A DNA stretch of 47,727 bases from a virus: IMG/VR virus record IMGVR_UViG_3300042456_000346, positions 1-47,727 of that record; one strand, given 5' to 3'. The position numbers were made by a program, and so were the translations under genes. Below, in pieces: positions 6,765-45,973 of this stretch (position 1 is its first letter; the number at the start of each line of letters is the position of its first letter). Under the pieces are notes generated by a model. That model did not search any database, was not told where the DNA came from, and saw only the letters and a program-made list of their open reading frames with translations.

Positions 6765-8012
6765 ATGGCTTGTCCTAATGTTTTCAATGCGTTCGCCGTT
6801 GCGACTGAGTCGCTCGCGCAGGACGTTTACAAGCGCGCCTCGTATCGTTCGATGTGGTTGAACCTCATTGAGCGTGGCGAGTATCCTCAGGGTACTGGTT
6901 TGACCCAGACCTCGTTCACCACCACTTCGATTGAGCCGACTGCGGCTGAGGAGTGGTCGGCCATCACCCTCGCGTCCGGCAACCCCGGCGATAACGGTGG
7001 TGCTTGCGATGTCACCTACAATGACGTTCCGGTTGGCTACAACGCTGTCACTTGGGGGCCTGAGCGTTTTGCGCTGAAAGGTCCGCTCTTGTGTAAGGAT
7101 GATCTGACCTTTGATCATCGAGTTGAGGCGTTCTTGCGTGTGTACTTGGAGAAGTTGTCCATTCGCGCACAGCGTTCGTGGGAGACTCGTTACCAGAACA
7201 TGTTTGCCAAGTACGCCATCAAGGCGGTGGCCGACTCGTCGTTTACGCAGGTGGAGACGATTCCGTCTGGTGTGAATGAGTTGCCTTGGATTCAGACTGG
7301 TTCGGTTGGCCAGGCGTTGAATCAGGCTACCTCCGAGCTGACGCAGGAGATGTTGGATGTTGCTGCTGCTACGTTGATTCGTAATGGCGCGACGAATCCT
7401 GATAGTTCTGGGTTCATTAGCTTCTCTAGCGACGGTCCGGTGTTCCCGTTGTACATCGGCATGGAGGCTTCTCAGCGTATTGCTCAGAACAATGCTGCGC
7501 TGCGTGAGGATCTGCGGTTCGCTGACATGGGTTCTGGTGCTGGTGCCGAGCTGCTCCGTCGGATTGGCGCGAATCGGGTCATCAAGAACTTTCGCCATAT
7601 CCCGAACCTGTTCCCGCCCCGCTTCAGCTATGCTGGCGGCAAGTACACGCTCATCCAGCCCTTCACCAGCTCGTCTGGCACGAAGGGTACTGTGTTCAGC
7701 GTCAACCCGAGCTGGACGACCGCCTTGTTCGAGGGTGCGTTCATCCCGACTCCGTACGTCATCAAGAGCCATATCGTTCGCCCGGTGAACCGTGTTGGCG
7801 ACTTGAGCTGGCAGCCGACCAACTACATGGGCGAGTGGCAGTGGGTGACTGGTGCCTACAAGCTCGATGTGGATTGCGCCGATCCTCTGGAGAAGAAGGG
7901 TCAGCACTACGCTGAGTTCGTTCATGCTGTGGAGCCGATCTTCACGAACCAGGGTATGACGATCATCTTCCGTCGTTGCACCGGAGCTTTGACAACCATC
8001 ATCTGCTCGTAA
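6765..8012 (+). CDS. major capsid protein (inferred)
   Basis: 415 residues from the ATG at 6765; an upstream in-frame Met at 6708 would add a hydrophobic 19-residue stretch with no support. Features: helical N-terminus (ESLAQDVYKRASYRSMW), a long mixed-fold body, many Pro/Gly/Tyr turns and evenly mixed composition, as in HK97-fold shell proteins. The size, the terminator after it, the distinctive T-rich leader and the scaffold protein elsewhere in the genome support the call, as does the absence of any other capsid candidate. I do not recognise a close relative. It sits on the opposite strand from portal and scaffold. Confidence 0.65.
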   Translation: MACPNVFNAFAVATESLAQDVYKRASYRSMWLNLIERGEYPQGTGLTQTSFTTTSIEPTAAEEWSAITLASGNPGDNGGACDVTYNDVPVGYNAVTWGPERFALKGPLLCKDDLTFDHRVEAFLRVYLEKLSIRAQRSWETRYQNMFAKYAIKAVADSSFTQVETIPSGVNELPWIQTGSVGQALNQATSELTQEMLDVAAATLIRNGATNPDSSGFISFSSDGPVFPLYIGMEASQRIAQNNAALREDLRFADMGSGAGAELLRRIGANRVIKNFRHIPNLFPPRFSYAGGKYTLIQPFTSSSGTKGTVFSVNPSWTTALFEGAFIPTPYVIKSHIVRPVNRVGDLSWQPTNYMGEWQWVTGAYKLDVDCADPLEKKGQHYAEFVHAVEPIFTNQGMTIIFRRCTGALTTIICS

Positions 8013-13411: not shown

Positions 13412-14693
13412 ATCGTGTTGTTAGATGTCGTTTGAGTTTATGCCTCTGCGGAATTGGGTCGAGAATGTCGTCTAGCTTCATCGGCTTCTCCTTGTTGACG
13501 ACATCGCGCTTGGGTCGAATCACCTTCGTAACCTCCAGCATGTCGGCCAACGGTAGCTTGATGTAGCCGCAATCAACGTCGTTGATGCCGTACGAGACGA
13601 CGAAATGATTCTTTGCGCTGTCGTAGAACGCTCCGCACGGGAACACTACCGCAGGTAATCCCGGCCACCAGTCCTGCTGATTCGTGCCGGTGAGAAGCGG
13701 CAACGTTGTCATCCGAGCAATGCGGAACGGTGCCTTAGCCTCGAATGCGTACGCTCCCATGTAGTAACGACGCTTCTTGTTGATCCACGGCAATGAACTG
13801 TGGAAGAAGGTCCAGTACAAGCCATCGACCAGAATCGGATTCGAGCCGCCGCGCACCTCGCCAAACTTCCAGAGCGGATTGAACTCGTCTGTGACGTACT
13901 CCGCTTCCTTCTCAAGACGCCCATTAAGGCGTACTACGACATGAGGATTGGCCGAATACACCATGTGTGGCGCGTTATCGTGCGTGAAATAGAGCCAGTT
14001 CTTTTCATGGCCATCGTTCACCATCGCCTGGGCGTAGTTGTTTCCGTAGATCGGATCGAATCGGGCAACATTCAGGAACTGCTTGTCCAAGACGAACATC
14101 GCCTGATGCGCGTAGCTCTTGAATGGAACAAATGTGCAGCAGCTTAGGCCGTACTTGTCGCCGAACTTGACGATGCGCGGATCTTCGAACTGCTCGTTTG
14201 GAAAATGCGAGGTAAGGTTGAGCAACGCCTTCTTGATTGCTCCAAGATCCTTGGTCAGCTCGAAGATAACGATGTCGTTTTTCTCAAGGTAAACGTCCTC
14301 GTCCTTCTCGCGCTTATTGCGGCAGCGTCGGGTGAAAAGCAGGATCTGACCGTTTGGTTCCTGAATGATTGCAGGGTTGAAGTAGTACGTTCCAACCTCC
14401 TCAGGAAGCGTGATTTTACCAACCTCCCAGTCGCATTGTTCGGCCAGCTTGGGTACGTCGTTTTTTGCGTAGCTCATTAGAAACTCTGCTGCGAATTTGA
14501 TTTCGTCGTATTGGGAAAGCCAATGATCGCGTTCCTCGCGGACCTCGGTCAGATGCTCTTCATGTTCTTTAGCTCGAATCTCAAGCGTCTTTCGCAAATC
14601 CTCGATCTGCATGAGCAAATCGGCCTGACCATCACCACCATTTGCAAACCGCTTGAGAGCTTTAAGAGACAGACTTCGTATAATGTCTTTCAT
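13341..14693 (-). CDS. GH130-like beta-propeller protein with coiled-coil N-terminus
   Basis: 450 residues. Residues 1-75 are helical/coiled coil (LLMQIEDLRKTLEIRAKEHE). From about 95 on there are propeller-like repeats with the sequence style of glycoside phosphorylase/hydrolase family 130: FNPAIIQEPNGQILLFTRR, FEDPRIVKFGDKYGL, then VRGGSNPILVDGLYWTFFHS and YYMGAYAFEA. The EDPR motif normally carries the catalytic Asp of GH130, enzymes acting on beta-mannosidic bonds. The gene follows two glycosyltransferases and two methyltransferases with a one-base overlap, so it probably acts on the same glycan. The coiled coil may attach it to the virion. Confidence 0.55.
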   Translation of the reverse strand: MKDIIRSLSLKALKRFANGGDGQADLLMQIEDLRKTLEIRAKEHEEHLTEVREERDHWLSQYDEIKFAAEFLMSYAKNDVPKLAEQCDWEVGKITLPEEVGTYYFNPAIIQEPNGQILLFTRRCRNKREKDEDVYLEKNDIVIFELTKDLGAIKKALLNLTSHFPNEQFEDPRIVKFGDKYGLSCCTFVPFKSYAHQAMFVLDKQFLNVARFDPIYGNNYAQAMVNDGHEKNWLYFTHDNAPHMVYSANPHVVVRLNGRLEKEAEYVTDEFNPLWKFGEVRGGSNPILVDGLYWTFFHSSLPWINKKRRYYMGAYAFEAKAPFRIARMTTLPLLTGTNQQDWWPGLPAVVFPCGAFYDSAKNHFVVSYGINDVDCGYIKLPLADMLEVTKVIRPKRDVVNKEKPMKLDDILDPIPQRHKLKRHLTTRYDQLAKRLDEEPQGDSEEPDGAA

Positions 14694-15322
14694 TATGGAT
14701 ACAATTTTGTGTTCTCCTGCGTCGCGAGCCTCGGAAGAATCCCGTAAAAGTTCATTCTAGGCATCGAATCGACCAGCATCTGGATGTCGATTGGACACCA
14801 AACCTTCTGGTTCGTTTCGAGGAGTTTGCAGACACCTTCGTAATTTACAAGGTAAGCATGCGTACACATGCCGCGAACGAGCTTGTAAAGGTTCGACGCG
14901 ATGTAGCCGTGGTCTTCAATCGGGTCGGCGCAGCAGCTTCCGATGTAGACGACATGCCAGTCGCTCGGGAGATAGTCCAGATTGTCGGCCAGCTTTTTCT
15001 TCCAATCGGAGCATGTGAACTCAACGTCATCCTCGACGATGAGAAATGTGCGATGATCGGTTATCTTCGACTCGACCATCCACTTGATGGCCGACCAGAC
15101 AGAAAAATGGCTGAGTCCGGCGACGATTGTTTTGACCTTCGCCTTCTCCTTCTCGCGTGTGTGGTAGTAGTCGGTCGATATGCCGCAGTTCTCAGCCCTG
15201 AATCCGTACATCGGAACCGCATCGATTCCGAATGACTTCATGTAGCGGATGCAGCGTCGCTCCTTCTCACTCTCAGGCTTCGAGATGATGAAGCACGGCG
15301 TCTTTTCGAGCTGTAGTTTCAT
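14693..15322 (-). CDS. GT25-like glycosyltransferase 1
   Basis: 209 residues from the Met at 15322, which overlaps the upstream stop (ATGA); a further 15 codons are open upstream. Motifs of LPS/procollagen-type family 25 transferases: N-terminal strand CFIISKPESEKERR, the acidic metal-site motif FLIVEDDVEFT, GMCTHAYLVNYEGVCKLLE, and a late PIDIQML motif. GT25 enzymes move galactose or glucose from a nucleotide sugar to LPS or protein. It shares THxYxV and PIDxQM features with the gene at 15914-16516, so the two are paralogous. Confidence 0.7.
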   Translation of the reverse strand: MKLQLEKTPCFIISKPESEKERRCIRYMKSFGIDAVPMYGFRAENCGISTDYYHTREKEKAKVKTIVAGLSHFSVWSAIKWMVESKITDHRTFLIVEDDVEFTCSDWKKKLADNLDYLPSDWHVVYIGSCCADPIEDHGYIASNLYKLVRGMCTHAYLVNYEGVCKLLETNQKVWCPIDIQMLVDSMPRMNFYGILPRLATQENTKLYP

Positions 15323-15909
15323 CGGTTCGGGAGGATGTAGATGATGCCGCGACGCGCACCTACGCATCGGCTAGGGTGGTTGTAGTAGAAGCTGTAGCCG
15401 TACTTCTGTGTCAGCGTCTTGGCGCGGTAAATCGCGTCCAGCTTCTCCTTGACGTAGCCAAGACAAATGTCGTGGCCATTGTAACTGTCGTATCCAAGCT
15501 GTCCGGTCGGTTCCTTGAAGTCGTGGATGGCAATGACCGGATGCAGATCGTAGCGATTGATTGCCTCAAGCTCTTCGAGCAGCGGCAGGTAGTCGTTCCA
15601 GTGGGCGTCGAGAAAGAAGATTGTGTCGTGTCCAATTCCGTGATGCGGAATGAACCAGTTCATGCAGGCATCGCTACTGCCCTCGAACATCTCAGCGTAG
15701 ACATTCTCGCGTTTGAACTTCTCCTTAGCTTTCTCAACCAAGTCGTGGTTCAGCTCGCATGAAACGGTCTTGAGGAAGTTCTTGGCCAACCAAACGGTAG
15801 TGTCCGCTTCGTGAGTGCCGGTTTCGACAGCGGTCGTCAGCTCGAAGCGTTCTTTGAGGTAAAGAAACTCCTGCTCGATGAATGTGTCTCCATTGAAAGG
15901 TGAACCCAT
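15319..15909 (-). CDS. SAM-dependent methyltransferase-like protein 1
   Basis: 196 residues. Glycine motif AVETGTHEADTTVWLAKNF (about 27-45) for SAM binding; then SCELNHDLVEKAKEKF, the acidic strand end that contacts the ribose; FFLDAHWNDYLPLLEELEAI resembles the DAxH/W motif of Methyltransf_24/FkbM-type enzymes that methylate sugars or small molecules. It lies between the two GT25-like genes, so methylation of the transferred sugar is the most natural guess. Confidence 0.6.
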   Translation of the reverse strand: MGSPFNGDTFIEQEFLYLKERFELTTAVETGTHEADTTVWLAKNFLKTVSCELNHDLVEKAKEKFKRENVYAEMFEGSSDACMNWFIPHHGIGHDTIFFLDAHWNDYLPLLEELEAINRYDLHPVIAIHDFKEPTGQLGYDSYNGHDICLGYVKEKLDAIYRAKTLTQKYGYSFYYNHPSRCVGARRGIIYILPNR

Positions 15910-15913
15910 AATT

Positions 15914-16516
15914 TTAGTCGGCTAAAGCGCAGTCTTCTTGATCGGCAACTCGCGGGAAAATTGTGAAACATTTCAGATGCTGGCGGCTCTTGAAGTACAT
16001 CTGCAAATCGATTGGTGCAAAGACCTCTTCGTTCGTCTCGATGAGAGTCTTGAGAGCCTTTTTGCGGACGATGTAGCAGTGAGTGCAAAGCGGCATTCCT
16101 TCGAAGAGGTTTGAATCCAGCTCGCGTGAGAGCTTTCCATGCGCGCAACAAGAGCCAGGATAGAGAATATCCCAATCCTCGGGCAGCTTTGTCAGCGCAC
16201 GTTCGATTGTTTCGCGCCAATGCGGACGGAATAGGATGTCGTCCTCTAGGACCATCACCATGTCCGGCGTGGAAGGATCGAAATCCAGCGCGTTCCATAG
16301 CATCCAATGGGACATGCTGCATCCAACGTGCTTGGAGCAGATGAGGTAGCCTGAGCCGGGAGCATCTATCTCGTATGGAATGCTCGCTTTCAGGCCGGAC
16401 TTCGCGCCGTTCAGGCCATAGAAAATGCGGTAGTCCGTGATTCCAGCGGAATCAAGGTTTCTTTGTAGGCGCGGGATGCGAGAACTGCCTCGCATCGTGA
16501 TAACGACCGTTTGCAC
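15914..16516 (-). CDS. GT25-like glycosyltransferase 2
   Basis: 200 residues. TVVITMRGSSRIPRLQRNL at the N-terminus, a CSMSHWMLWNAL helix, the metal motif MVMVLEDDILF (about 86-96), GMPLCTHCYIVRKKALKTLI, and PIDLQMYF. This is the order of motifs in family 25 transferases. Compared with copy 1, it has the same length and motif spacing but low overall identity, suggesting separate acceptor or donor specificities. Spaced four bases from each neighbour in the operon. Confidence 0.7.
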   Translation of the reverse strand: MQTVVITMRGSSRIPRLQRNLDSAGITDYRIFYGLNGAKSGLKASIPYEIDAPGSGYLICSKHVGCSMSHWMLWNALDFDPSTPDMVMVLEDDILFRPHWRETIERALTKLPEDWDILYPGSCCAHGKLSRELDSNLFEGMPLCTHCYIVRKKALKTLIETNEEVFAPIDLQMYFKSRQHLKCFTIFPRVADQEDCALAD

Positions 16517-16520
16517 GGGG

Positions 16521-17138
16521 TTATTTCAGTTTTCGATAGATAGCAAAAACGCTCTCGCTCAGATCAAATCGCGAAACAAATTCGCAGCGTTTCATGACGA
16601 ACTTGAGAGCAGTCTGGGTCGATTCCCAGTTCACATCGTCCATCACGATGTAGCCGCCAACCTTGAGCTTCGGAAGCCAGTTGACGACATCGCTCGTAGA
16701 AGGCCATTCGGCGTGATTGGCGTCGATGTGAACCATGTCCATGTCGGGCAGAAACCGTGACGCATCCCATGAGGACATTCGGCAGAACTGAATCTGCTTT
16801 ACGACCTGCGCGCGAACGCAATGACCAACGAAAGATTCGTAATGCTTGTCCAGATCGAGTGTCGCCCACCATTCCTGATTGGCATTCGTCTCGTCGTCGA
16901 TGCAGTCTTCTTTCTTCCAAGAATCGATAGCGTAGACGGTTCCGCTTCCGTTCAGCTTGCAGGCTTGGGCGAGTGCGAGCGTGGACTTGCCTTCGAAAAC
17001 ACCAACTTCAGCAATGCGCTGCGGTTTCGTTTCGAGAACAAGTTTGGCGATTTCCAAACCTTTTTTCGGATCGCACCAACCGCCCATCTTCGGGAAGTTG
17101 TCGGCGATGAATTGAACAATGTTTTCTTCGTTTCCCAT
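16521..17138 (-). CDS. SAM-dependent methyltransferase 2
   Basis: 205 residues. The SAM motif IAEVGVFEGKSTLALAQA (about 41-58) is clear; GTVYAIDSWKKEDCID gives the second acidic strand; DMDMVHIDANHAEWPSTSDV and GGYIVMDDVNW match the DxxHIDGxH and D(D) motifs of Methyltransf_24 O-methyltransferases used in glycan and macrolide modification. It directly follows the portal gene with five bases between. Substrate unknown, likely the cassette's glycan. Confidence 0.7.
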   Translation of the reverse strand: MGNEENIVQFIADNFPKMGGWCDPKKGLEIAKLVLETKPQRIAEVGVFEGKSTLALAQACKLNGSGTVYAIDSWKKEDCIDDETNANQEWWATLDLDKHYESFVGHCVRAQVVKQIQFCRMSSWDASRFLPDMDMVHIDANHAEWPSTSDVVNWLPKLKVGGYIVMDDVNWESTQTALKFVMKRCEFVSRFDLSESVFAIYRKLK

Positions 17139-40159: not shown

Positions 40160-40342
40160 TCAAGCGTTAGATGCCGATGAAGTGCGTGGTTCTTGCGTGA
40201 CACGCTTTCCATCGATCATCTTTCGCAACGCCTGGGTAGCGAGAAAGCCGATTTTGATTCCGTTCTCTTCGCAGTACTTGCGAATCTCTTCATGCAGATC
40301 GGAATCGATGGTGATGACTGTCTTCTTGTTTTTGGTTTTCAT
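40160..40342 (-). CDS. ribbon-helix-helix-like small protein 1
   Basis: 60 residues: TVITIDSDLHEEIRKYCEEN followed by GIKIGFLATQALRKMIDGKR, a strand then two helices, as in ribbon-helix-helix repressors, which dimerise and bind operator DNA by the beta strand. A disordered tail follows. ATGA overlap with its neighbour. A second RHH-like gene lies at 43686-43853. Confidence 0.6.
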   Translation of the reverse strand: MKTKNKKTVITIDSDLHEEIRKYCEENGIKIGFLATQALRKMIDGKRVTQEPRTSSASNA

Positions 40343-40569
40343 GGTTTTTGCTCCTTACACTGCTTCATTGCTGCGTCGATTGCGGCTCGAAGCGTCGGCC
40401 AATCAGATGTATTGATTCCGATCTTCCCATAGCCTTCCATGCTTTGAGATATTTCTACGAACTCTCCTGCGGCTTCATCGACTATTTCGATTTCGGTTGC
40501 TGACTCTGCAAAGAGTGGACTTCCGTCTGGCAAGACTGACCACTTAATCGGTCGGGTTATGAGTTTCAT
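40339..40569 (-). CDS. small hypothetical protein
   Basis: 76 residues, acidic. Short strands (SVLPDGSPLFAES; ATEIEIVDEAAGEFVEISQS) and a C-terminal helix (TLRAAIDAAMKQCKEQKP). The last residues, CKEQKP, echo the KEAKP/KEAKL tail of the array genes upstream and likewise carry a GGAG-type ribosome binding site for the next gene. Not recognised. Confidence 0.6.
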   Translation of the reverse strand: MKLITRPIKWSVLPDGSPLFAESATEIEIVDEAAGEFVEISQSMEGYGKIGINTSDWPTLRAAIDAAMKQCKEQKP

Positions 40570-40868
40570 GGTTTCAACGCCTCAAAGGCTATCTGAGATT
40601 CGGTCGAACGGTTGCCACGGTAGTCCTGATCGGCGATTCGGCGGAGGGCGGATTCTAGGTGGCGGATGCGGTCAACCAGATTGAGAGTGTGTATGTTCAG
40701 CTTCTTGAACGATTCGTTCGCCGCTTTCAGTTCTTGCTGAGCCTTGTCATTCTGTTTCTCAAGGCAGAATGCGTAGTCGTTTTGATAGTATTTTCGGCCA
40801 CAATGCATTTCGTCTCCACCCGCCGTTATTGTCATTGGCCAGCCGCATTTTTCGCAAGTATCGCTCAT
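40566..40868 (-). CDS. zinc-ribbon plus coiled-coil small protein
   Basis: 100 residues. DTCEKCGWPMTITAGGDEMH is followed by a lone Cys at HCGRKYY and another at AFCLEK, a plausible zinc knuckle. After it comes a coiled coil (QQELKAANESFKKLN, VDRIRHLESALRRIAD), which is related to the DRIKRLEE coil of the array genes. It may therefore be a diverged member with an added metal site. Confidence 0.6.
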   Translation of the reverse strand: MSDTCEKCGWPMTITAGGDEMHCGRKYYQNDYAFCLEKQNDKAQQELKAANESFKKLNIHTLNLVDRIRHLESALRRIADQDYRGNRSTESQIAFEALKP

Positions 40869-41092
40869 GGCTTTGCCTCCTTAGATTGTTCCCACATTAC
40901 GGAACGTGGTTCGTCGGTGTAAAAATGTTGCACCATCATGTCCCCCGCTTCCTCCATCTGCTTGATGCGGTCTTCCAGTTGCTTGATCCGATCCTCCATC
41001 TTGCGGACTTCGAGAGCGATGAGTCGGAGTTCGCGGGACTGGTGGCAATTGGGAGACTCCGATAGGAAAAGGATTTTTTGCTCTACACTCAC
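40865..41092 (-). CDS. DRIKRLEE coiled-coil array protein 1
   Basis: 75 residues from GTG at 41092 (VSVEQKILFLSES); upstream frame is open to 41122 but overlaps the previous gene. Shares VSVEQxIL and the RELRLIALEVRKMEDRIKQL block with the genes at 41322 and 42225. It repeats DRIKQLEDRIKQMEEAGDMM and ends SKEAKP. The C-terminal codons supply the AAGGAGG ribosome binding site of the next gene. Function unknown; a coiled-coil oligomer is likely. Confidence 0.65.
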   Translation of the reverse strand: MSVEQKILFLSESPNCHQSRELRLIALEVRKMEDRIKQLEDRIKQMEEAGDMMVQHFYTDEPRSVMWEQSKEAKP

Positions 41093-41325
41093 AGCTTGGC
41101 CTCCTTCTTGGACTGTTTCCATTCACGCAATGCGGAATCCACATCCAATCCACCGATGTGACTTCGATTGTAAAGTAGCCAGATGAAAACCAAGTCTCCT
41201 GCGTCTTTCAGCTTCTCAATGTTGTCCTCCAGCCGCTTGATCCGCTCAAGAAGTTCTGTCTTGTCCCGACTTAGATCGCTGATCGCATTGCAATATGCGA
41301 CGTGTGCATCGACTATGTGGCTCAC
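41089..41325 (-). CDS. DRIKRLEE coiled-coil array protein 2
   Basis: 78 residues, GTG start at 41325 overlapping the upstream stop as GTGA. Coil ELLERIKRLEDNIEKLKDAG in the middle, then a Trp/Tyr-rich part (LVFIWLLYNRSHIGGLDV) and the tail KKEAKL. The start is seven bases after a full AAGGAGG encoded within the upstream gene. Confidence 0.65.
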   Translation of the reverse strand: MSHIVDAHVAYCNAISDLSRDKTELLERIKRLEDNIEKLKDAGDLVFIWLLYNRSHIGGLDVDSALREWKQSKKEAKL

Positions 41326-41342
41326 AGCTTGGCCTCCTTGGC
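41322..41342 (-). promoter_or_regulatory. embedded ribosome binding site at a GTGA junction (representative)
   Basis: The minus-strand sequence GCCAAGGAGGCCAAGCTGTG encodes A-K-E-A-K-L and the overlapping TGA stop, and at the same time supplies AAGGAGG seven bases before the GTG start of the next gene. The same arrangement appears at the junctions near 41089, 41654, 41965, 42446, 42679 and 42909. It decides the GTG starts used here for the array genes. Confidence 0.8.
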
Positions 41343-41657
41343 TTTGCGCCAGTTGGCTATCTGCTTCTGATCGTAAGAATCGTGACAGATTTCCTCATAA
41401 GCATTCGCCATTTCATCCCCCGCCTCCTCCAGCCGCTTGATCTTCGCGATTGCATCCTCGTAGGACATCATAGTCGCAAGACTGTTTGCTGCCGCAACAG
41501 TGCGAGCCTCCTCCAGCCGCTTGATGCGGTCCTCTAGTTGTTTGATCCGATCCTCCCTCTTGCGGACTTCAAGAGCGATGGCGCGGAGTTCGCGGGAGTC
41601 GCGCCATGCTGAAACATTCGCGTTCACTACGTCCAGTATTCGTTGTTCCACACTCAC
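41322..41657 (-). CDS. DRIKRLEE coiled-coil array protein 3
   Basis: 111 residues from GTG at 41657. VSVEQRILDVV, then RELRAIALEVRKREDRIKQL, DRIKRLEEARTVAAAN and IAKIKRLEEAGDEMANAYEE: three coil cassettes in one protein, showing internal expansion. Ends KAKEAKL. The proteins at 40865 and 42225 share its N-terminal half almost word for word, so these three are recent relatives. Confidence 0.65.
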   Translation of the reverse strand: MSVEQRILDVVNANVSAWRDSRELRAIALEVRKREDRIKQLEDRIKRLEEARTVAAANSLATMMSYEDAIAKIKRLEEAGDEMANAYEEICHDSYDQKQIANWRKAKEAKL

Positions 41658-41968
41658 AGCTTGTCCTCCTTGGCTTTGGTCCAAAATTCCTGACCCACAC
41701 GCTCAGACCATGGGAACATCGCATCCCCCGCCTCCTCCAACCGCTTGATGCGGTTGTTTGCTGCAATAAGTTCATCAAGGGCTTTGCAGTGACTTCTGGA
41801 ATGTTCAGAAAAATCTCTCAGAACCTTCTCAGTTACGAACACCGCATCATCTCGCTCCTTAGTCACCGCGTTGAGTTCGCGTTCCATGAGCTTCATCTCA
41901 CCGGCTAGATCGTACATCGTGGCGTGAGGTTTAAAGTACGCCGCATCCGTCCTCGGTGTATCGCTCAC
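41654..41968 (-). CDS. DRIKRLEE coiled-coil array protein 4
   Basis: 104 residues from GTG at 41968. N-terminus VSDTPRTDAAYF matches the MSDTPRTDA start of the neighbouring gene; then LMERELNAVTKERDDAVFVT, a coil, LIAANNRIKRLEEAGDAMFP and a tail KAKEDKL. SDTPRTDA N-termini are common in phage proteins I know. Mixed ancestry within the array is visible. Confidence 0.65.
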   Translation of the reverse strand: MSDTPRTDAAYFKPHATMYDLAGEMKLMERELNAVTKERDDAVFVTEKVLRDFSEHSRSHCKALDELIAANNRIKRLEEAGDAMFPWSERVGQEFWTKAKEDKL

Positions 41969-42228
41969 GGCTTGGCCTCCTTGGCTTCGAGTGCTTCTGA
42001 CGATTTGTCGATTGCGTACCAGCAAGCGTCTATCATTGCTCGATTGTTGTTGTCGCGGTTCCAGTATTCTCTAATGCACTCAAGCGCCTCCTCCAGCCGC
42101 TTGATGCGGTCGTTGGCTGCGTTAAGTTCGCGTTCGAGTTTCCTAGCGAAAAACGATCCAACAACGAAATGATGATCATCTAAGGAGTGTGGTAATTCTT
42201 CCGCATCCGTCCTCGGTGTATCGCTCAT
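41965..42228 (-). CDS. DRIKRLEE coiled-coil array protein 5
   Basis: 87 residues, ATG at 42228 (MSDTPRTDAEELPHSL). ARKLERELNAANDRIKRLEE is the conserved coil, followed by ALECIREYWNRDNNNRAMID and tail EAKEAKP. The stop overlaps the next GTG. Its N-terminus pairs it with the gene at 41654. Confidence 0.65.
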   Translation of the reverse strand: MSDTPRTDAEELPHSLDDHHFVVGSFFARKLERELNAANDRIKRLEEALECIREYWNRDNNNRAMIDACWYAIDKSSEALEAKEAKP

Positions 42229-42449
42229 TGCTTCCTCCTCTCCTCCTCCAGAATCGCCAGCATACCGCTCGCAACATGACCGTCTGAGCCGTCCCTAAAA
42301 AACGCCATTGCTGCTCGGTGAATGCGGTCTTCCAGTTGCTTGATCCGATCCTCCATCTTGCGGGCTTCAAGAGCGATTGCGCGGAGTTCTTTACCGTAGA
42401 ACCAGCTCGGTGCTTCAGCGATGTCCAGTATTCGTTGTTCAACACTCAC
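42225..42449 (-). CDS. DRIKRLEE coiled-coil array protein 6
   Basis: 74 residues from GTG at 42449 (VSVEQRILDIAEAP). Contains RELRAIALEARKMEDRIKQL-type block (KELRAIALEARKMEDRIKQL here) and DRIHRAAMAF in place of the second coil; it ends in LEEERRKQ and not the usual tail, so the following gene's ribosome binding site (GAGGAGAGGAGG) is encoded by EEERR. Function unknown. Confidence 0.65.
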   Translation of the reverse strand: MSVEQRILDIAEAPSWFYGKELRAIALEARKMEDRIKQLEDRIHRAAMAFFRDGSDGHVASGMLAILEEERRKQ

Positions 42450-42682
42450 AGCTTGGCCTCCTTGGCTTTGTTCCACTGCTTAATTGCTTCCGATTGCAGG
42501 AAACTGATGTCTCCCGTGTTTTTTGGGCAGAAATACCACAGCAACGCATTACCCGCATCCTCCAGCCGCTTGATGCGGGCTTTGAGTTCCTCTTGGTTTT
42601 GCTGGTTGTGGTTTTCGGTGGCTATCAGGTCCATATCAATCTTAGCTGCAGTTGAACTTGTGAAACATTCAATGGCACTCAC
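42446..42682 (-). CDS. DRIKRLEE coiled-coil array protein 7
   Basis: 78 residues, GTG at 42682. Unrelated N-terminus (SAIECFTSSTAAKIDMDLIA), then EELKARIKRLEDAGNALLWY and the tail KQWNKAKEAKL. The retained coil plus tail with a replaced N-terminus shows that modules are shuffled in this array. Confidence 0.6.
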   Translation of the reverse strand: MSAIECFTSSTAAKIDMDLIATENHNQQNQEELKARIKRLEDAGNALLWYFCPKNTGDISFLQSEAIKQWNKAKEAKL

Positions 42683-42912
42683 GGCTTGGCCTCCTTGGCT
42701 TGTAGTGCGACTCTTGCTGCGATTATCGCTGACTGCTCTTCAGGATTCCAGAATCCAGCGTCTCCGCTGTTGGCCAGATCAACGATCCATTTTACGGTGC
42801 CTTCGAGCGCCTCCTCCAGCCGCTTGATGCGGTCTTTCAAAGCAATTATTTCTTGGCTTTGTAGAGCGTTCAGTTTATTGCATTTTACCCATTCGTTTTG
42901 TTCAGTTTTCAC
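42679..42912 (-). CDS. DRIKRLEE coiled-coil array protein 8
   Basis: 77 residues, GTG at 42912. N-terminal coil LQSQEIIALKDRIKRLEEAL, then WIVDLANSGDAGFWNPEEQS and the tail ALQAKEAKP. GTGA and ATGA type overlaps on both sides. Function unknown. Confidence 0.6.
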   Translation of the reverse strand: MKTEQNEWVKCNKLNALQSQEIIALKDRIKRLEEALEGTVKWIVDLANSGDAGFWNPEEQSAIIAARVALQAKEAKP

Positions 42913-43148
42913 AGCTTGGCCTCCCTCGCTTTGAGCATTGCGTCGGCTGCTGCGTATGCAGCTTTTGCGTCATCATCCCAAGTTGGGCATCCTCCATTAG
43001 CAATCAACCCCTGCAACGCCGCCGCTGCGAAGTAGTCCCTAAGTGCCATCCCGCTTTGCGGACTTGTGTGTCCATCAGCTCCAGTTCGAGGAAACGCCGG
43101 CCCTCCGTCGTTGATCATTTTCGTGGGGTCAGGAATATGATCGTTCAT
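42909..43148 (-). CDS. small conserved phage protein (DGGPAFP type)
   Basis: 79 residues from the ATG at 43148, overlapping the upstream stop. Contains MINDGGPAFPRTGADGHTSP, QSGMALRDYFAAAALQGLIA, a pair of motifs I know from many phages (NDGGPAFP..., GMSLRDYFAA.ALQG); function unknown. It ends KAREAKL with the same embedded ribosome binding site as the array genes. Confidence 0.7.
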   Translation of the reverse strand: MNDHIPDPTKMINDGGPAFPRTGADGHTSPQSGMALRDYFAAAALQGLIANGGCPTWDDDAKAAYAAADAMLKAREAKL

Positions 43149-43498
43149 TTCGCCTCCTCCACGACCCCACAGGGTTTCCAAGTAACCCCGCCGTCGGTGC
43201 TGTGTTCGTATTTCTCACACCAGTCCTTTCTGTTTTCTTCGCTGGATGTGCGGTCGATCAACCAACGTGTTTTTGGGTGTTCACGATTCCTCGCCTGCGC
43301 CCCTAGCGGCACCTCATCCGCAGTCCACGGGCGGAGGACAGGGGTGGGTTTGATGTGGTATGCGCTTATGTCGTTAACCCAATTCCAAGATGGATTATCT
43401 GTCGCTTGAGGGGAAGTTACAAACTCCGATACCACTTCCTTCCCATCCACAAATGCCTGCATGACACGGATGGCTTCTTTGGTTTGTTCGATGTTCAT
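43145..43498 (-). CDS. hypothetical protein
   Basis: 117 residues. TKEAIRVMQAFVDGKEVVSE at the N-terminus, then WNWVNDISAYHIKPTP, LRPWTADEVPLGAQARNREH and YEHSTDGGVTWKPCGVVEE. The pattern RPWTxxEVPxGAxxR...KxW is one I recall from phage proteins of unknown function. Tail VEEAK again lies over a GGAGG sequence for the next gene. Confidence 0.65.
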   Translation of the reverse strand: MNIEQTKEAIRVMQAFVDGKEVVSEFVTSPQATDNPSWNWVNDISAYHIKPTPVLRPWTADEVPLGAQARNREHPKTRWLIDRTSSEENRKDWCEKYEHSTDGGVTWKPCGVVEEAK

Positions 43499-43689
43499 TG
43501 CTTGTCCTCCACTTTTACCATCTCCACAAAGTTCAATCGGTTCTTTTCGTTTATCGCGATGCCCAATCCGCTGCGACGACAGTAGAGTTCAATTGCGTTG
43601 TAGACCCTTTCGCTTGTTGGCTTGGGCAGATAGAGTTCTAGCAGCCCTCTGAATGTGATGCAGAACGTTTCCTCGGTTTTCTTGCTCAT
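43495..43689 (-). CDS. small hypothetical protein
   Basis: 64 residues. TFCITFRGLLELYLPKPTSE then RVYNAIELYCRRSGLGIAIN suggests a short helical DNA-binding-like or oligomeric protein, but I do not recognise the family. ATGA overlaps on both sides, next to the RHH-like gene. Confidence 0.6.
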   Translation of the reverse strand: MSKKTEETFCITFRGLLELYLPKPTSERVYNAIELYCRRSGLGIAINEKNRLNFVEMVKVEDKQ

Positions 43690-43853
43690 TGTTGCTCCTT
43701 TCGCTTGAGGTATTCTTGAATCGCTTCGTCGGCCACGCCTTGCATGTTGTAGCCGTTCTTTTGAGCGTACGACTTCAACTCGGCATGAGTCTCAGGACTG
43801 ACCAACACAAACTTCACCGGCTCTCGAACTCGCTTTGGTTTTTTATCGTTCAT
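43686..43853 (-). CDS. ribbon-helix-helix-like small protein 2
   Basis: 55 residues: basic start MNDKKPKRVREP, strand VKFVLVSPETHAELKSYAQK, turn NGYNMQGVADEAIQEYLKRK. Strand plus two helices fits an Arc/CopG-type repressor. Its stop overlaps the next start (ATGA). It and the 60-residue RHH-like gene flank the coiled-coil array on both sides. Confidence 0.6.
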   Translation of the reverse strand: MNDKKPKRVREPVKFVLVSPETHAELKSYAQKNGYNMQGVADEAIQEYLKRKEQQ

Positions 43854-44348: not shown

Positions 44349-45143
44349 TTATTGTTCGGATTTATTCAAGACCCACTTAGGGCATGAAAGAGTTTGCACG
44401 GCTGTCGGATAAGCTGGCCAACTATCCAGTGCTTTGCATTCGTGGAGCAGCGTGATGGACTTCCTGCGAAGGTTCGCACCGGCCTGAAGCCATTCGGAGT
44501 CCAGCTTGTAGATGCCAATCGCATACGGTGCCTTACGCTCGACCGCTACGAAGATGAAGTTCTCCGCGCCTGTCATCTCCAGATAATGCGCGGCTTGAAT
44601 GTGGTAACCAAAACTCGTTACGGTACGGCTGAAGCCTTCAACCGTCGCGTCGTCGGTCGTCTTAATATCGACGAGCGTATGGTCTTCAATCCACAGATCG
44701 GGACGCGCCTTGAGAGGTAGGCCAGTCTCCTCGTCTTCAGCGAAAACGCTCGCCTCGATCTTGTGCGGCAGATGAATGATGTCCCAGAACGGATGGCGGC
44801 GGACGCTGTTCGCGACGCCCTGGATTTCAATGTCCTCAGCGTGAGTCATGTGAATGCGTGACTTATGCTGCTCCTTCCACGCTTTGCCTTCCTTCGTACG
44901 ACCGTCGATGTCAGGCGGAACGACCGCAACGACCTGCGAGTATAAGTGCGGCTCCAGAACAGCGGTATGAATCGCCGTACCCATCTGCATCGCCTTCGTC
45001 GGATCCTGATGCTCCTCCAGCGCGGCTTTGTAGTGCGCCGGGGACTTGAGGATCTTGGTCATCATGCTTTTCGAGAGAGCGTCAACGGCATGGTACTTCT
45101 CAGCAGCCATGTTGAAATTGATGTGTCGGTTTAGAATGCTCAT
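44349..45143 (-). CDS. RecE/lambda-exonuclease-like PD-(D/E)XK nuclease
   Basis: 264 residues. His59 in MGTAIHTAVLEP, Asp149 in KARPDLWIED, Asp159-Ile-Lys161 in LVDIKTTDDA and the QAAHYLEM helix (Gln183, Tyr187). This is the Exo VIII (RecE)/Cas4-like layout that resects double-stranded ends 5' to 3'. The neighbouring annealing-type protein completes a two-gene recombination pair, with ATGA overlap. Confidence 0.8.
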   Translation of the reverse strand: MSILNRHINFNMAAEKYHAVDALSKSMMTKILKSPAHYKAALEEHQDPTKAMQMGTAIHTAVLEPHLYSQVVAVVPPDIDGRTKEGKAWKEQHKSRIHMTHAEDIEIQGVANSVRRHPFWDIIHLPHKIEASVFAEDEETGLPLKARPDLWIEDHTLVDIKTTDDATVEGFSRTVTSFGYHIQAAHYLEMTGAENFIFVAVERKAPYAIGIYKLDSEWLQAGANLRRKSITLLHECKALDSWPAYPTAVQTLSCPKWVLNKSEQ

Positions 45144-45973
45144 TCGGTCGGAGGGATAACGAACGCCTTGGCCTTGGAGATGAAACCATCCGCATCGGCG
45201 ATGATCATGTTGGCCACCTTGGTCGAGACATCGCGGAAGTTCTGACCTTCCTTGATGAGGTTCTTGGAGAGCAGGAACGCATTCGCTGCCTCAGAATGTG
45301 GCTCAAGAATCTGCTCCAATTTGTCTGTCAGCGAGAAGGCCGGTTCCGGCGTCACATTGACCGTCTGGCGCGTCGGAGCGGTCGGAGCGGGTGCTGGTGA
45401 GGTGGCGAAGTCGGCGGCTTCCTCGGGCGAATATAAACCGGCGACAACTTCAGGTGCGAGCATTCGAATCGCCTTCGAGATGCAGCGCGCACGGAGCATG
45501 GCCGACGGATCTTTCTGCCAACCGCTTCCAGGCTTAGCCGGTAGCAGGCCCGCAACCTTCGCGTCCTCGGTCGTGAATCCGATTTCGCATTCGTTGCCGT
45601 CGTACTTCCAGACGCCAATCGCAGCCGTCGAATCAAACTGCTTCCAGATGACCTTTCCGCCGCGAGTACGGTATCCGGCGAGCATCGCATCGGAACGCAT
45701 CGTCAAAGAGCCGTTCACAAGGTGAAACTCACGCTTGAAGTCGAACGGAGTCTTGCGCGTTGCCAGACATTCGAGAGCAATCATGTTGCCTTGCTCGTCC
45801 TTCTGGCAGTTGAAGACGCCGCTTCGGGCAATCCACGATCCTAGCTCCTTGACCGCTTCAAGGGAGGTTCCAATGCGGGAGTAGAATTCCGCGCTGTCAG
45901 AGCTGACCGAAGTCAGTGGTTGCGGTGGTGTCGGGGACGGTACTGCTACCGTCAGTGTGCTGTTGCTGTTCAT
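45140..45973 (-). CDS. RecT/Redbeta-like single-strand annealing protein
   Basis: 277 residues. EFYSRIGTSLEAVKELGSWI, LECLATRKTPFDFKREFHLV, DAMLAGYRTRGGKVIWKQF, and WQKDPSAMLRARCISKAIRM with APEVVAGLYSPEE, a signature of RecT-like annealases (WxxMPxxMLxxRAxSxAxR...PxxxxGxYxxEE). A Pro/Ala/Thr linker (about 194-215) leads to a C-terminal helical domain. It would pair with the RecE-like nuclease. The start overlaps the preceding HTH gene by 77 bases. Confidence 0.65.
   Translation of the reverse strand: MNSNSTLTVAVPSPTPPQPLTSVSSDSAEFYSRIGTSLEAVKELGSWIARSGVFNCQKDEQGNMIALECLATRKTPFDFKREFHLVNGSLTMRSDAMLAGYRTRGGKVIWKQFDSTAAIGVWKYDGNECEIGFTTEDAKVAGLLPAKPGSGWQKDPSAMLRARCISKAIRMLAPEVVAGLYSPEEAADFATSPAPAPTAPTRQTVNVTPEPAFSLTDKLEQILEPHSEAANAFLLSKNLIKEGQNFRDVSTKVANMIIADADGFISKAKAFVIPPTE

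Follow-up and report, generated by a model that had tools for sequence, protein, structure and literature searches.

Phages are already known to shuffle genes through repeats that lie between them, to carry early coiled-coil proteins whose ends are exchangeable, and to show recent mosaicism of protein domains. The PeSL promoter-terminator cassettes of T4-type phages are short stretches of repeated intergenic DNA that promote modular shuffling (Arbiol 2010 and Comeau 2014, via PMC4503421), and the known hotspots of domain mosaicism are tail fibers, spikes, and endolysins (PMC10684548). Among coiled-coil early proteins, lambda Ea22 is described as tetrameric and prolysogenic, and its genes are dispensable for lambda replication. 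Here we analyze a 47,727-nt stretch of viral DNA (IMG/VR record IMGVR_UViG_3300042456_000346, positions 1 to 47,727; the window below), in which nine small minus-strand genes at 42912-40566 encode coil-bearing proteins in a tandem array. We consider it likely that two short DNA sequences repeated along this array, its joints, are homology sites where phage recombination assembles new small proteins. The proposal draws on the architecture of the array, the re-pairing of protein heads and tails, homology breaks at the joints, the sharing of modules across lineages, and constraint at the protein level.

Architecture of the array and its two joints

The nine genes, of 74 to 111 codons each, form a translationally coupled run, with stop/start overlaps of 4 nt and strong Shine-Dalgarno (SD) sites. 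Each encodes a head, a coil (RIK[RQ]LEE), and a tail, and all tails within the window array differ from one another. Gene 1 (42679-42912; 77 amino acids [aa]) joins an MKTEQNEW head to the tail EALEGTVKWIVDLA, which is found with other heads in the related stretches L008 (where the head is SDTPRTDA), L137, and L147. Gene 2 (42446-42682; 78 aa) has the head MSAIECF and the tail AGNALLWYFCPKNTGD; in L084, a TPRMD head stands on the same tail, and the window-like identity begins at window position 42577, which is the coil-linker edge in this gene. The tail of gene 3 (42225-42449; 74 aa), DRIHRAAMAFFRDG, follows a VEQRIL head in the window and L009 and an SDTPISD head in L008, and that of gene 4 (41965-42228; 87 aa), EALECIREYWNRDNN, follows an SDTPRTDA head in the window and a longer, unrelated head in L164-L166, being 97% identical at the DNA level in L164/L165. 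Gene 5 (41654-41968; 104 aa) combines an SDTPRTDA head with the tail AGDAMFPWSE, and gene 6 (41322-41657; 111 aa) combines a VEQRIL head, three coil units, and the tail AGDEMANAYEEIC, also present in L008. They are followed by gene 7 (41089-41325; 78 aa; head MSHIVDAH), gene 8 (40865-41092; 75 aa; VEQKIL head, tail AGDMMVQHFYTDEP), and gene 9 (40566-40868; 100 aa), whose CxxC head is like a zinc-binding domain and whose tail, LRRIADQDYRGNRS, is found on four heads.

The first joint consists of the coil codons, about GCATCAAGCGGCTGGAGGAGGC, and the second is the gene junction, about GCCAAGGAGGCCAAGC(T/C)GTGA; the two alternate along the array. Across the whole window, the coil 23-mer CGCATCAAGCGGCTGGAGGAGGC has seven matches at three or fewer mismatches, all on the minus strand and inside the array (42809-42831, 42555-42577, 42086-42108, 41730-41752, 41506-41528, 41422-41444, and 40947-40969), and none in 100 shuffles. 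The junction linker AAGGAGGCCAAGC has eight minus-strand matches at one or no mismatch, against 0.09 expected, all in the array or at its edge (42451-42463 and others starting at 42914, 42684, 41970, 41659, 41327, 41094, and 40870). In AAGGAGGCCAAGC(T/C)GTGA, the TGA closes one gene and the (G/A)TG opens the next; the junction thus serves as gene end, SD site, and next start together, and the common C terminus KEAK[LP] is simply the translation of the following gene's ribosome-binding site. Exact copies of a 21-nt junction occur in at least 119 IMG/VR stretches, and an exact 22-nt coil likewise occurs in at least 119. Promoter- and terminator-like sites do not exceed shuffles, and none of the latter kind lies on the coding strand.

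A sequence-only reading of the window had described much of this anatomy. Its run of consecutive genes sharing a coil agrees with the gene map and the 23-mer matches, its eight coil copies equal the number from our repeat search of the window, and its two recurring N-terminal types were recovered in the same genes (VSVEQ[RK]IL at 40865, 41322, and 42225; SDTPRTDA at 41654 and 41965), as were the three coil units of the gene at 41322.

Re-pairing of heads and tails across phage lineages

Scans with RecE and the helicase yielded 71 loci with both anchors, which reduce to 37 nonredundant arrays. The array interval, taken from the gene after RecE to the helicase, spans 1,384 to 5,079 nt and 4 to 16 genes. 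Arrays differ among the three closest relatives analyzed despite helicase proteins that are 99 to 100% identical. Uniform arrays in relatives, the outcome that the sequence-only reading had named as counting against it, were not found; the arrays vary in gene number, gene order, and head/tail pairing, which strongly supports its proposal of module shuffling.

When 132 coil proteins were split at the coil, they fell into 43 head clusters and 42 tail clusters joined in 81 pairings. Of 16 recurrent tails, 13 occur with more than one head; likewise, 10 of 16 recurrent heads occur with more than one tail. The largest tail cluster, built by single linkage, merges several tail types and overstates head variety there, and the other twelve multihead tails are independent of it. 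Several tails more than 70% identical sit on unrelated heads, the pattern of recently emerged domain mosaicism. Within arrays, only 1 or 2 of 237 pairs share a tail, against 6.8 to 8.5 expected by label shuffling. As the expected value is inflated by orthologues, this nonredundancy is no more than suggestive.

The sharing of modules extends beyond close relatives. Window modules recur at 85 to 97% DNA identity in phages whose helicase is 60 to 65%, RecE 28 to 40%, and primase 42 to 45% identical to those of the window, and in some phages carrying them all three of these genes were undetected in the fetched stretch. The joints often bound the aligned module blocks in such distant phages. Among cultured phages, the array region had no match at the DNA level and the protein of gene 4 had none by tblastn; RecE and terminase matches there fall below 60% identity. 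Neither of two scans across 84,980 bacterial and archaeal species genomes, one using the TPRTDA-type alignment and the other the helicase alignment, found a relative, and no provirus was seen.

Break points at the joints and alternative explanations

Alignments between arrays gave 2,524 high-scoring segment pairs, whose ends collapse to 1,372 distinct positions and were compared with 500 circular shifts. Within 10 nt of a junction lie 24.6% of the distinct ends (null, 8.0%; standard deviation, 0.8). Once ends 30 nt or less from a junction are set aside, 25.1% of the remainder lie no more than 15 nt from a coil (null, 7.9%; standard deviation, 1.0); none of the 500 shifts reached either observed value. 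Among pairs of near-identical contigs, single steps can be seen at both joints. L086 and L089 are 100% identical up to L086:7587, one base beyond the stop/start overlap at 7583-7586, and then diverge. L165 has, relative to L164 and L166, one additional gene of 83 aa exactly between two junction copies, and L164/L165 differ from L166 by a 54-bp tandem duplication that ends at coil microhomology. In L084, the first 491 nt match L086 (99.6%) and the sequence from position 360 on matches the window (99.8%), which places an L086-type head on a window-type tail.

The coil codons are also far more uniform than codon usage predicts. Across 39 RIKRLEEA coils drawn from 27 phages, agreement at third positions is 0.857, against 0.382 expected from array codon usage (simulation maximum, 0.410; n = 30), and CGG encodes the second Arg in 38 of the 39, though it makes up 11% of Arg codons. 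This identity fits either DNA-level conservation or the repeated spread of one sequence, without discriminating between them.

These patterns bear differently on other explanations. The region might be an ordinary mosaic of ORFans, generated by random illegitimate recombination and selection for intact genes, with the joints kept merely as SD site and coil. Breaks at gene ends are expected in phage mosaics regardless, shuffled ORFan regions are on record (PMC4503421), and the junction core AAGGAGG is under functional constraint. However, breaks cluster inside genes as well, at the coil (25.1% versus 7.9%), the synonymous positions of the coil are fixed far past codon usage, and junction copies flank the extra gene of L165, so that we regard this explanation as unlikely. 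Less likely again is that the coil DNA is kept as an internal SD site and start (GGAGGAGGC...ATG) for tail-only proteins, that is, a gene within a gene, and not as a recombination joint. GGAGGAGG does lie within the coil codons (e.g., window 41717-41749), an in-frame ATG stands 11 nt downstream in 85 of 196 AGD-type tails, and genes within genes with variable C-terminal products are known from the Rpn proteins (PMC10327210). Most of the remaining AGD-type tails, however, have Leu (71/196), Ala (24/196), or Ile (11/196) at that place, as a heptad core predicts, EAL-type tails lack the ATG, and this reading does not account for why homology breaks at the coil. An origin mainly by tandem duplication and divergence within a single lineage, with phages exchanging little, to which the related paralogues of the array (three VEQRIL heads, two TPRTDA heads) and the 54-bp duplication of L164/L165 might point, is highly improbable given that tails are nearly all distinct within an array yet recur under other heads in other phages and that window modules in distant backbones show cross-lineage DNA identities of 85 to 97%.

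Several points nonetheless weigh against homology-guided assembly at the joints. A recent shared origin could account for the identical coil codons instead, and selection for intact genes also produces breaks at gene ends without any targeting. All of the sequences are metagenomic assemblies, in which repeats can yield chimeric contigs; single events may be artifacts, above all L084, which could be an assembly chimera, while the aggregate rests on many contigs. Of some 359 neighboring gene pairs in the 37 arrays, 321 overlap by exactly 4 nt, a share that is soft, as the gene caller rewards such overlaps. Finally, the coils of the genes at 42446 and 41654 (two of nine) gave no heptad signal in a shuffle test.

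Recombination genes and a proposed mechanism

Upstream of the coupled region containing the array, the window encodes a RecT-type single-strand annealing protein (45140-45973, minus strand; phrog_561, E = 6e-23) and a RecE-type exonuclease (44349-45143, minus strand; phrog_412, E = 6e-76), which together occupy 45973-44349; a helicase, an SSB-like protein, and a primase lie downstream of the array. Annealase/exonuclease genes adjoin arrays in differing backbones: RecT/RecE in the window and L170, Bet-like protein/exonuclease in L179, and an exonuclease near the array of L177. Four Rad52-like phage recombinases are efficient with short or diverged homology (PMC3945230).

On the mechanism that we favor, assembly of new small proteins at the joints, recombination at either coil or junction would yield an expressible product, because all coils join in one frame and the junctions supply a ribosome-binding site and a start. 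Exchange at the coil would swap heads and tails, whereas exchange at the junction would add or remove whole genes, and both would probably be the work of RecT/RecE- or Bet/Exo-type systems that the phages themselves encode, acting during coinfection. A stronger form of the idea, which we entertain as a possibility but doubt, is a dedicated array for combinatorial diversification, in which two selected, alternating joints and a pool of heads, tails, and whole genes shared by distant backbones would allow nearly any crossover to produce a translated, oligomerizing adaptor of new specificity.

The record may be incomplete at 47,727 bases; models of integrases and of reverse transcriptases (RVT_1) had no match in it, and a diversity-generating retroelement was rejected on the available sequence. 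As for the "diversity-generating set" of the sequence-only reading, recombination between phages appears to be the source of the diversity.

Protein properties and candidate function

Heads have a ratio of nonsynonymous to synonymous polymorphism (pN/pS) of 0.52 and tails one of 0.44, compared with 0.14 to 0.18 for RecE, SSB, and the helicase and 0.50 for the ribbon-helix-helix (RHH)-like gene downstream of the array. The array genes are thus coding, and selection on them is purifying but relaxed. A lack of expression, which the sequence-only reading had named as an outcome that would refute it, is disfavored because the frames are open, coupled, and constrained at a pN/pS of about 0.5.

Seven of the nine coil proteins exceed shuffles in a heptad test. 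AlphaFold2 predicts a disordered N terminus and one helix (residues 21-84) for the product of 41965-42228 (predicted local distance difference test score [pLDDT], 75; predicted template modeling score [pTM], 0.40) and helices at residues 3-13, 18-90, and 94-110 for that of 41322-41657 (pLDDT, 85; pTM, 0.46). Both pTM values are low. The heptad signal and the predicted long helices fit a coil that oligomerizes. Searches of the coil proteins against Pfam and NCBIfam gave no useful match, no curated family being hit, and PADLOC models, which cover defense but not antidefense proteins, gave none.

By analogy with lambda Ea22, we tentatively propose that the proteins are exchangeable host-interaction adaptors, possibly including antidefense factors. 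Antidefense inhibition, raised in the sequence-only reading, is plausible, the family and defense-model searches having given it no direct support, and the RHH-like genes bracketing the region are only suggestive of an antidefense island. Should they turn out to act in host interaction or antidefense, the arrays would amount to a natural combinatorial library, and the joints could be used as probes for more.

Neighboring genes

The array lies within a single coupled minus-strand run at 43853-40160. The run opens with an RHH-like gene (43686-43853; Omega_Repress/56B_RHH, E of about 8e-5, under the curated cutoff), followed by three non-coil genes: one of 64 aa (43495-43689) and one of 117 aa of the WTADEVPLG type (43145-43498), both recurring in relatives, and one of 79 aa of the NDGGPAF type (42909-43148; phrog_2201, E = 9e-22). 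After the nine coil genes come a non-coil gene of 76 aa (40339-40569) and a second RHH-like gene (40160-40342; weak Pfam match), whose position is conserved in relatives. Two such genes therefore do bracket the array, as the sequence-only reading had it, but the bracketed run is wider and includes non-coil genes, and the family matches are weak or below cutoff. The region is an accessory operon, probably an early one, whose small, translationally coupled genes encode chimeras.

A leader, M[SN]DHIPDPTKMI (window 43109-43148; heads in L054, L074, and L124), is found on both NDGGPAF-type and TPRTDA-type proteins and is perhaps a third joint. In L079 gene 5 and L147 gene 6, a WTADEVPLG-type N terminus is fused to a VEQRIL-like or coil-bearing head and a tail. 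In many relatives, among them L009 (5148-5798), L019, and L023, the conserved early gene and the RHH-like gene are separated by a gene of about 215 aa that by eye looks like thymidylate synthase ThyX; the window has no such gene at this place. Farther away, near the structural genes, visual inspection of window 14693-17138 suggested two glycosyltransferase-like genes and one methyltransferase-like gene.

Comparison with described systems

As a functional analogue, lambda Ea22 comes closest. Both are accessory genes near recombination genes, early in lambda and probably so here, and both encode a variable N terminus, a central coiled coil, and an exchangeable C-terminal domain; the separable, re-paired head, coil, and tail of the Ea22/Ead type are found in the array, with heptads in 7 of 9 proteins and helix 21-84 in the product of 41965-42228. 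Unlike the nine genes here, ea22 genes usually number one or two, Ea22 is about twice as long, and the available descriptions of it mention no alternating DNA joints; the Ea22/Ead family is not among the Pfam, PHROG, and NCBIfam matches of the coil proteins. With PeSL cassettes, the array shares short repeated DNA between genes. The gene-to-gene joint differs in being an SD site and a stop/start overlap of 4 nt instead of a promoter and stem-loop terminator, and in having a second counterpart inside genes. The "ORFanage" of cyanophage S-PM2 is likewise a cluster of small ORFans that relatives carry in differing order, but repeated joints and a head/coil/tail structure are not reported for it in the available text of PMC4503421.

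Near-identical fragments on otherwise unrelated proteins link the array to recent domain mosaicism (PMC10684548), but that survey set a minimum of 50 aa for aligned fragments and would therefore overlook modules of about 30 to 45 aa. A small literature search found no description of a tandem coupled array with two joints that alternate. The array unites, at one locus and in phages with distant core genes, short-repeat shuffling between genes with coiled-coil proteins that have exchangeable ends, and it offers a testable anatomy, made up of DNA joints, recombinases, and products, of how phages build new small proteins.

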